A DNA stretch of 64,000 nt from NCBI RefSeq assembly GCF_020405225.1, contig NZ_CP084472.1, positions 3,534,001 to 3,598,000 of the forward strand, written 5' to 3'. Every line of letters starts with the position of its first letter. Position 1 is the first letter of the stretch. Source of the DNA: Natrinema sp. DC36 (GTDB lineage: Archaea; Halobacteriota; Halobacteria; Halobacteriales; Natrialbaceae). Both the position numbers and the translations under genes were made by a program. Positions 15,880-51,271 of this stretch are shown here, piece after piece. The notes below the pieces were generated by a model. The model made no database searches. It was not told the origin of the DNA and worked only from the letters and a program-made list of their open reading frames with translations.

Positions 15880-16049
15880 CGCTGCCGGGGTCCGAGGTCG
15901 GACTAGCTGACGGGTCGCGCAATCGTGGTGGGAGCCCGTTACAGCAATCCGTCTTAGCTCGTTTTCCGATCGCGCTGGTTTCTCGACTTCTCTATGTGAT
16001 ATAGTCGCAATAATACCCACTAGGTAATCTATATCCTCTGCACCATAGA

Positions 16050-49106: not shown

Positions 49107-49586
49107 TCAGATCGGACTCGCCGTGACGAGGACCCACGCGAGACCGATCGCCGCGAGCGAACAGGCGAGGGTAGCCGCGGCGTTGCCGACCGCGAGAGCT
49201 CGATCCCCACGCTCGTACAGCCGGACCGTCTCGACCGAAAACGTCGAGAAGGTCGTGAACGAACCGCAGATTCCGGTGCCGATCAGTCGAAGCGTCGACT
49301 CGGTAGCGCCCGCGAAGACCGCGAGTCCGAAGACGAAACTGCCGACGACGTTGACCGCGAACGTCGCCAGCGGGAATCGATCGCTCGAGGCCTGAGCTGA
49401 GACGCGCTGACCGACCCAGTAGCGGAGGACCGCACCGATCGCGCCGCCGGTGCCGACGACGTGGGCCGGCTCGAGGTCGACGGTGACGGCTGCGTGGGTG
49501 ACGGTGACGGCCGTTTGGGCGAGAATGACGGCCGCATGGGCGAGCAACCGGACAGTGACGGCTCCCTCGAGAACCATCGCACTCAC
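49107..49586 (-). CDS. crcB: Fluoride channel/exporter CrcB (Fluc), second subunit
   Basis: 159 aa. It passes F- out of the cell. Signatures GGAIGAVLRYWVGQRV and GICGSFTTFSTFSVETV are present, with four membrane helices. There is an unusual N-terminal hydrophobic extension of about 45 residues (AVTVRLLAHAAVILAQTAVTV). The GTG at 49586 overlaps the previous stop (GTGA), implying translational coupling; an ATG at 49577 is the alternative. It pairs with the adjacent crcB to make a heterodimer. Confidence 0.87.
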   Translation of the reverse strand: MSAMVLEGAVTVRLLAHAAVILAQTAVTVTHAAVTVDLEPAHVVGTGGAIGAVLRYWVGQRVSAQASSDRFPLATFAVNVVGSFVFGLAVFAGATESTLRLIGTGICGSFTTFSTFSVETVRLYERGDRALAVGNAAATLACSLAAIGLAWVLVTASPI

Positions 49587-49990
49587 GCCGTCTCACCGCC
49601 GGCGTGGTGCGGCGTCCCGATTCGGCGCGCGAGCGCCCGTCCCGCGAGCACGCCGAGCAGCCCGAGTCCGTAGTTCGCGGCGACGATGCCGCCCAGCGCG
49701 AGCGGATTCGACGCGAGCGCAGTCTGGAGCGCGAACGTGCTGTAGGTCGTCAGCGAGGAGAGAAACCCCGTCGTGAAGACGAGGCGGGCCCGCGTTCCGA
49801 TGTGACCCGCGTACTCGGCCTCGTAGACCAGAAAGCCGAGGAGGGCGCTCCCGACGGCGTTGACGAGGACGATCGAGGGCACGTCCGGGAGCGCTTCCAT
49901 CGCGAGAAACCGGAGGTTCGAGCCGGCGAAGCCGCCGACGGCGATCAGCGCGAGCGTCTCGAGTCGAACGAGCGGATGTGCGTCTGCCAT
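49583..49990 (-). CDS. crcB: Fluoride channel/exporter CrcB (Fluc), first subunit
   Basis: 135 aa with four membrane helices. Motifs: GGFAGSNLRFLAMEAL and the pore segment GFLSSLTTYSTFALQTAL, in which the Phe-box residues and the Na+-site region are retained. First gene of a two-gene fluoride export operon. The leader upstream carries a fluoride riboswitch whose last stem ends 18 nt before the ATG. Confidence 0.88.
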   Translation of the reverse strand: MADAHPLVRLETLALIAVGGFAGSNLRFLAMEALPDVPSIVLVNAVGSALLGFLVYEAEYAGHIGTRARLVFTTGFLSSLTTYSTFALQTALASNPLALGGIVAANYGLGLLGVLAGRALARRIGTPHHAGGETA

Positions 49991-50347
49991 GGCTGAGTGG
50001 TCACAGAGGGGGCGTCAGACGAACTCCTGCCAGTCAGCTCCAGGGCACCCGCGACCCGCCATGCGGGTGCGCCGGGACGCAGTGACAGCAGCCCGTCTCA
50101 GCCGACCGACGCTCGCCGGTGCCAGCGCTGGGATCAACGCCAGCAATGGACCGGCACGTCTCGCCCGGCGGTTAGGTCAGGCGGCCCCCATCGCCTAATC
50201 GTGTGCCCCCTCTCGCGGGCATACAATGAGGGTTCCGGATGTCGTCCCTGGTTCTTCTCGGAGTAACCCCGCGGCCCCGCATCGTGCTCGAGCACCTCGA
50301 GTCGCGGAAGGAAAAGATCCAAGGTTAGACTGCCTCTAAACCGAGCT
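49991..50347. other. 357-bp control region between crcB and a CDF gene
   Basis: Mostly the crcB leader with the fluoride riboswitch (50004-50196). A minus-strand TTGTATG element near 50221-50228 may be its TATA box. The right end (50290-50347) must hold the promoter of the divergent CDF gene. No other gene. Confidence 0.5.
50004..50196 (-). promoter_or_regulatory. Fluoride riboswitch (crcB motif) with a long insertion
   Basis: The 5' half reads AGGCG-AT-GGGGGC-CGCCT on the minus strand: the AGGCG/CGCCT pseudoknot, and stem 1 GGGGGC (50184-50189). TAACCGCC follows at 50167-50174. The 3' half, CTGAC-GCCCCC-TCTG, supplies the matching stem-1 strand (50008-50013). About 150 nt with several hairpins replace the usual short stem 3. 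The aptamer ends about 14 nt before the crcB ATG, so ligand binding could control translation start. Confidence 0.7.
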
Positions 50348-51271
50348 ATGACCGGAGACGCTGCCGGGGACGGCGGGCGGGGCGGGTTCGCGCGGGCGTC
50401 GTGGGCGAACGTCCTCGGTAACGTCGTGAAGATCGTCGCCGAGGGGGCGGCGGGACTCGCCTTCGGGAGCGTCGCCCTGCTCGCGGACGCGGCCCACTCG
50501 CTCGCGGACCTCGTGGCCAGCGTGGTCGTTCTCGTCTGGGGCCGAAGCGCGTTCGACGAACCCGACACGACCCATCCGCACGGCCACGATCGGATCGAAC
50601 CCCTGACGGCGCTGTTCGTCGGTGCCGTCATCGCGCTCCTCGGCCTGAATCTGCTCTACCGGTCCGTCGAGGGACTCCTCACCGGCACCGATATCGAGTT
50701 CAGCGTCCTGCTCCTCGTGGCCCTTGGCTTCGCAATCGTCGACATGTACCTCGTCTACCGCTACACCGTTCGGATCAACGAACGCCTGCAGTCGACGGCG
50801 CTCGCGGCGCTTGCGAAGGACTGCCTGAACGACATCTACACCTCGGTCGCCGCCATCGTCGGCGTTCTCGGCGTCCTGGTCGGCTATCCGATACTCGACC
50901 CCGCCGCCGGCGGCCTCGTCAGCCTGCTGGTCGTCTATCAGGGCGTGGAGATCGGCAGGGAGAACGTCGATTACCTCATCGGTGCCGCGCCCGGTCCCGA
51001 AAAGCGCGGGGAGATCACCGACCGCCTGCGGAGCCACCCGGCCGTCGAGGGCGTTCACGACCTGACCGTCTTCTACGACGGCACCGTCCTCGAGGTCGAA
51101 GTCCACGTCGAGGTCGACGGCGACATGCCGTTTCGCGATGCCCACGACATCGAATCGGAACTGGTCGATCAGTTGCGAGGCCTCGAGAACGTCGGCGACG
51201 CACACGTCCACCTCGATCCGTCCGGAATCGGCGAGTGGAAGGAGTCGGCCGACGAGTTCGGATCGCCTTAG
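50348..51271 (+). CDS. Cation diffusion facilitator transporter
   Basis: 307 aa. The metal motifs are ADAAHSLADLVAS (HxxxD, about 46-58) and THPHGHDRIEPL (about 75-86), followed by six membrane helices overall and a C-terminal ferredoxin-like domain (about 220-300). It differs clearly from the CDF protein at 10.8 kb. Divergent from the fluoride operon; a shared regulator is possible but not shown. Confidence 0.88.
   Translation: MTGDAAGDGGRGGFARASWANVLGNVVKIVAEGAAGLAFGSVALLADAAHSLADLVASVVVLVWGRSAFDEPDTTHPHGHDRIEPLTALFVGAVIALLGLNLLYRSVEGLLTGTDIEFSVLLLVALGFAIVDMYLVYRYTVRINERLQSTALAALAKDCLNDIYTSVAAIVGVLGVLVGYPILDPAAGGLVSLLVVYQGVEIGRENVDYLIGAAPGPEKRGEITDRLRSHPAVEGVHDLTVFYDGTVLEVEVHVEVDGDMPFRDAHDIESELVDQLRGLENVGDAHVHLDPSGIGEWKESADEFGSP

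Follow-up and report, generated by a model that had tools for sequence, protein, structure and literature searches.

The window, a stretch of 64,000 nucleotides from the genome of Natrinema sp. DC36, carries two consecutive crcB genes on its minus strand, and a divergently oriented gene for a cation-efflux transporter begins at 50348. The product of the second crcB gene is likely the heterodimer partner of the first. Nucleotides 50196..50007 of the minus strand, directly 5' of the first crcB gene, constitute an aptamer of the fluoride riboswitch type (RF01734). In the reading direction of that strand, AGGCG-AU-GGGGGC-CGCCU is followed by a linker of 9 nt, a stem 3 of 69 nt, UGA, a palindrome of 80 nt, a second UGA, C, GCCCCC and U (Table 1). 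The pseudoknot and the six-pair P1 helix, both proposed earlier when the DNA was read without database searches (the sequence-only reading), were found as described.

Table 1. Positions of the aptamer elements, the inserted palindrome and the downstream genes in the window
Feature	Position	Strand	Evidence or remark
Pseudoknot 5' strand AGGCG (aptamer positions 1-5)	50192..50196	-	Pairs with CGCCU
AUG (A6-U7-G8); G8 doubles as first P1 base	50189..50191	-	AUG in 38/40 haloarchaeal sequences
P1 5' strand GGGGGC; GGGGCC or GGAGUC in relatives	50184..50189	-	Covaries with distal 3' strand
Pseudoknot 3' strand CGCCU	50179..50183	-	Pairs with AGGCG
Linker GACCUAACC, 9 nt, 3 nt longer than Rfam consensus	50170..50178	-	Extra 3 nt shared by nearly all haloarchaeal versions examined
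Stem 3 (P3), 69 nt, GCCGG...UCGGC	50101..50169	-	Ordinary long P3 of the Natrialbaceae family
First UGA copy, target-site duplication	50098..50100	-	GGC-TGA-CGG unbroken in 18 intact genus relatives
Palindromic MITE-like element, 80 nt, GACGGGCU...AGUUCGUC	50018..50097	-	Dispersed repeat; same insertion in sister genome G021
Second UGA copy and C, equivalent of junction strand U38-G39-A40-C41	50014..50017	-	Core alignment
P1 3' strand GCCCCC; GGUCCC or GACUCC in relatives	50008..50013	-	Changes compensate those in 5' strand
U48 equivalent, partner of A40 in reverse Hoogsteen linchpin pair	50007	-	U in 37/40; PMC8752731
crcB, fluoride exporter subunit, ATG 16 nt past aptamer	49583..49990	-	PF02537, 56.3 bits
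Second crcB, 4-nt overlap with first	49107..49586	-	PF02537, 89.4 bits

In the known aptamer A40 and U48 form a reverse Hoogsteen pair, and the fluoride-locked state depends on U48 (PMC8752731). Another important residue, in the fluoride riboswitch of B. cereus, is U41 (PMC11077080); the window has C at this position, as does the whole family.

Control is probably exerted at translation initiation, since the aptamer lies only 16 nt from the start codon, which leaves no room for a terminator, and a U-tract is absent. The sequence-only reading had put the distance at about 14 nt and had suggested translational control from the short leader; the figure needs correction, as 16 nt separate the U48 equivalent from the crcB ATG at 49990, but the leader is short and such control is plausible. 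The crcB leader of the window shows no clear Shine-Dalgarno motif. A translational fluoride riboswitch is on record for archaea (Speed et al. 2018, as cited in PMC11077080). About 35 nt 5' of the aptamer (about 50222-50232, minus strand) there is a CTCATT box which recurs in nearly all Natrialbaceae crcB leaders, and which may be a promoter element that sets the transcript start just 5' of the aptamer.

Relation to the fluoride riboswitch class

The RF01734 model gave a partial match to the window, covering the 5' half only, with 13.9 bits (E 0.26-2.4) against a gathering cutoff of 34 bits, because the two halves of the aptamer stand 170 nt apart. A scan of the whole Natrinema sp. DC36 genome with this model likewise returned sub-threshold matches only. 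Since the score is too low, membership has to be argued from descent. For this purpose, searches with the crcB protein retrieved 22 loci from named Natrialbaceae genomes as well as loci from 29 genomes of the same genus. Nearly all fetched crcB leaders carry the sequence GGGCGAUGGGGCCCGCCYGACCCAACYGCYGG ... CGGCUGACGGUCCCU, which in most of them ends 11-20 nt before the ATG. A covariance model built from 24 of these Natrialbaceae and genus leaders (R1) found matches in 100 of 391 genomes of the haloarchaeal class, distributed over 37 of 86 genera. Compact versions of the aptamer occur in other haloarchaeal families: 20 stretches contain 22 matches, 21 of which exceed the RF01734 cutoff (43.7-56.2 bits; the remaining one scores 29.5), and CrcB is encoded directly downstream in 19 of the 20 stretches. 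The Rfam crcB model, proposed at the outset as a check, recognises nearly all of these compact matches, whereas the window itself stays below threshold.

Alignment of haloarchaeal crcB leaders, also proposed at the outset, revealed covariation in P1 and pseudoknot. Among 40 distinct haloarchaeal cores, 98% of the helix cells are paired, and double changes occur in the pseudoknot, P1 and P3 alike; the counts are inflated by relatedness among the rows, and the sequences of the window and of G021 were aligned after excision of the insert. In the pseudoknot the outer pair is G-U, G-C or A-U and a C-G pair has been replaced by U-A, while in P1 the exchanges are between G-C and A-U and between C-G, U-A and G-C. 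The residues A6-U7-G8 and U38-G39-A40 are each conserved in 38 of the 40 cores across the haloarchaea and U48 in 37, and all of them are present in the window. An unbroken series of intermediates links recognised RF01734 members to the window aptamer, which by descent is a member of the haloarchaeal branch of RF01734. The crcB position, too, is that of a fluoride-related gene (PF02537) downstream of the aptamer. The earlier view of a haloarchaeal fluoride riboswitch 5' of crcB, interrupted by extra sequence, is borne out by the conservation of the core throughout the family. That core, its occurrence in 100 of 391 genomes and the 21 relatives above the cutoff place the aptamer well beyond chance. 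A fortuitous resemblance with no riboswitch behind it would fit the low score of the window, but is so improbable as to be negligible in view of the homologous leaders in family and class, their recognition by RF01734 when compact, the downstream crcB genes and the covariation. It follows that the Rfam crcB model overlooks a haloarchaeal branch of fluoride riboswitches with a long stem 3.

Two further observations concern this branch. The linker between pseudoknot and P3 is about 3 nt longer than the Rfam consensus in most haloarchaeal fluoride aptamers. In two genomes (G368 and G309) a pair of fluoride riboswitches, approximately 415 nt apart, occurs in one stretch with crcB; each of two tandem crcB genes may have a switch of its own.

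A dispersed palindrome in the junction strand

The sequence-only reading described an insertion of some 150 nt in the hairpin arm, which would have replaced a normally short stem 3. Extra sequence is indeed present, including the hairpin GCACCCGC/GCGGGTGC that was then pointed out, but about half of the supposed insertion is the usual long stem 3 of the family. Measured between the conserved P3 arms, the intervening stretch ranges from 16 to 173 nt among Natrialbaceae relatives, so the stem 3 of the window is ordinary. The abnormal part is the 80 nt at 50018..50097, which lie 3' of stem 3, between it and the conserved UGAC junction strand, and which split and duplicate the conserved UGA (UGA-80 nt-UGA). 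In 18 other genus members with an intact aptamer the site reads ..GGCTGACGG.. without interruption, as compared to ..GGC-TGA-(80 nt)-TGA-CGG.. in the window. In the sister genome G021 the site is occupied by the same element.

The inserted sequence belongs to a dispersed family. The Natrinema sp. DC36 genome yields 24 matches to the palindrome at E<1e-6; tens of copies are found in G021 and in other genomes, and the family is carried by 80 of 121 Natrialbaceae genomes in 21 of 29 genera. The element is short, non-coding and bounded by terminal inverted repeats ([TG]ACGG..CTGTCA / TGACAG..CCGT[AC]), and the 80 nt fold by themselves at a predicted -46.9 kcal/mol. Identical 3-bp flanks, TGA/TGA or TCA/TCA, border 48 of 68 distinct copies, in agreement with the duplicated TGA of the window and the unbroken site in genus relatives. 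On these sequence features we classify the element as MITE-like, with a target duplication of 3 bp. With respect to an autonomous partner, a scan of the Natrinema sp. DC36 genome for the terminal repeats gave no pair at transposon-like spacing; a terminal-repeat-like match at position 15938 of the window was rejected since it does not amount to a complete element.

Sampled copies from Natrinema sp. DC36, G021, G028 and other genomes lie mostly on TGA stop codons. Where the TGA is on the left (47 copies), it closes a frame open for at least 60 codons in 39 cases, as compared to 30% for control TGAs, and in 57 of 59 such frames the GC content by codon position resembles that of coding sequence; these frame counts take in a few duplicates and shared sites. 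Because the TGA is duplicated at insertion, the stop codon is restored. Such a stop-codon-targeting mobile repeat across the Natrialbaceae merits a study of its own.

The identity of the insert bears on its possible role. It had been suggested that the insertion holds a second sensor or a protein-binding site; the former is contradicted by the dispersed nature of the palindrome and was rejected, and nothing was found in support of the latter. More generally, the insert could be a newly recruited functional domain, such as a second sensor, a protein site or an element for mRNA stability, as it has been kept in two species and can fold into a hairpin in both (terminal pair G-C in one, T-A in the other). 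However, the same sequence occurs genome-wide in unrelated places, mostly at stop codons, and nothing about it is specific to crcB, which makes recruitment quite improbable.

Fate of the sensor and comparison with known systems

In a tree of the flanking genes Natrinema sp. DC36 and G021 are sisters (support 0.986), with G028 outside. This grouping and the shared insertion are most simply explained if the element entered before the two lineages split, and if the changes particular to the Natrinema sp. DC36 lineage came later. Four such substitutions are located in P1 and pseudoknot: G1 became A (G-U to A-U), a C became G together with a G to C change (C-G to G-C), and a U became C (G-U to G-C). 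All 11 pairs remain intact. The probability that four random substitutions would do so is 0.007, or 0.037 under a fourfold transition bias, and the compensating C-G to G-C change bridges the insert. The core of G021 is exactly the consensus core.

Structure prediction was done with a program for nested structures, which cannot represent pseudoknots. With the insert in place, P1 of the Natrinema sp. DC36 RNA is predicted with a probability of about 1.0 and P3 with 0.65, and only 2.7% of shuffled inserts allow P1 and P3 equally well; in the G021 RNA the predicted fold omits P1 with or without the insert, and the rest of the fold is unaffected by it. For both sequences R1 proposed a nearer 3' half (at 50127 in the window), because the model cannot span the insert; this candidate was rejected as it has neither the UGAC-P1 match nor U48. 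From these models and the sequence comparison it seems rather probable that the RNA continues to fold and accommodates the mobile hairpin as an additional arm. For the further step, a functional riboswitch with the hairpin in its ligand-binding junction and compensated in P1, i.e. a naturally occurring fluoride aptamer with three arms, interrupted by a mobile element, we see the chances as evenly balanced. The additional helix next to U38 could perturb the site.

The main rival is a dead or dying riboswitch, in which the insertion broke the aptamer, the remaining pairing is a leftover or due to chance, and crcB is constitutive or otherwise controlled. Decay is a real possibility, since at least 7 of 29 genus members have a lost or damaged crcB riboswitch (G028, G013, G020, G019, G006, G010 and G011); in G028 the CUGA strand has been lost through a deletion between CGGTC repeats. 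Moreover, a comparison of Natrinema sp. DC36 with G021 shows similar rates of change in the core and in the remainder of the leader, which means that the core is not under strong constraint. Against a dead switch stand the pairing retained through all four substitutions, including the exchange across the insert, the intact AUG, UGA and U48, and the consensus core of G021. We regard loss of function as unlikely, though well above the recruitment of a new domain. Independent of this question, crcB itself has been retained despite repeated loss or decay of the riboswitch within one genus.

Our preferred explanation, to which we assign a probability of roughly 0.6, is an insertion in the common ancestor of the two species, with a sensor that still folds around the hairpin and a fluoride-controlled crcB-crcB mRNA. 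The 80-bp TGA-targeting palindrome entered the TGA of the CUGAC junction strand and duplicated it. Being self-complementary, the element would fold into an additional hairpin arm separating stem 3 from the junction strand, and this arm, lying between P3 and U38, would also take in the first UGA. The downstream UGA copy would supply U38-G39-A40 directly beside P1, and the pseudoknot, P1 and the A40-U48 pair would therefore still be possible. Mg2+ and fluoride would lock the pseudoknotted aptamer at the 5' end of the mRNA through A40-U48, as in other members, and the locked fold would raise crcB expression. If the sensor still works, an aptamer can survive when a transposon lands in a conserved strand of its ligand site: the palindrome folds out of the way, and the strand is restored by the target duplication. 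This would provide a concrete route by which RNAs acquire new arms, and would identify a place in the fluoride aptamer where insertions are tolerated.

The riboswitch and the mobile repeat are each of known kinds. The literature searched, on haloarchaeal fluoride riboswitches, transposons within riboswitches and stop-codon-targeting archaeal repeats, contained no direct precedent and no description of a mobile element inside an aptamer. With the crcB motif of RF01734 the window element shares the pseudoknot, P1, P3, the AUG and UGA junctions, U48 and the location before crcB; it differs in the linker, longer by 3 nt as is typical of haloarchaea, in C41 instead of U41, in the long P3 and in the mobile hairpin of 80 nt that separates P3 from U38. 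The fluoride riboswitch employed for inducible expression in hyperthermophiles (Speed et al. 2018), as cited in PMC11077080, is also archaeal and is described there as translational, whereas the riboswitch described here comes from a haloarchaeon and is interrupted by a mobile element. Small repeats of Haloquadratum (SMRs/MITEs, PMC3119063) are similar in size (about 80-110 bp for SMRs), terminal inverted repeats, lack of a transposase and tens of haloarchaeal copies. Unlike the TGA-duplicating family on stop codons, SMRs insert into other mobile elements and do so without duplicating the target. The nearest counterpart found for the insertion is the BOX element between two T-box riboswitches of pneumococcus (PMC3049150), likewise a mobile palindrome in a leader RNA that apparently still works. 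BOX lies between two aptamers, whereas the palindrome described here lies inside one, in the strand of the ligand site.
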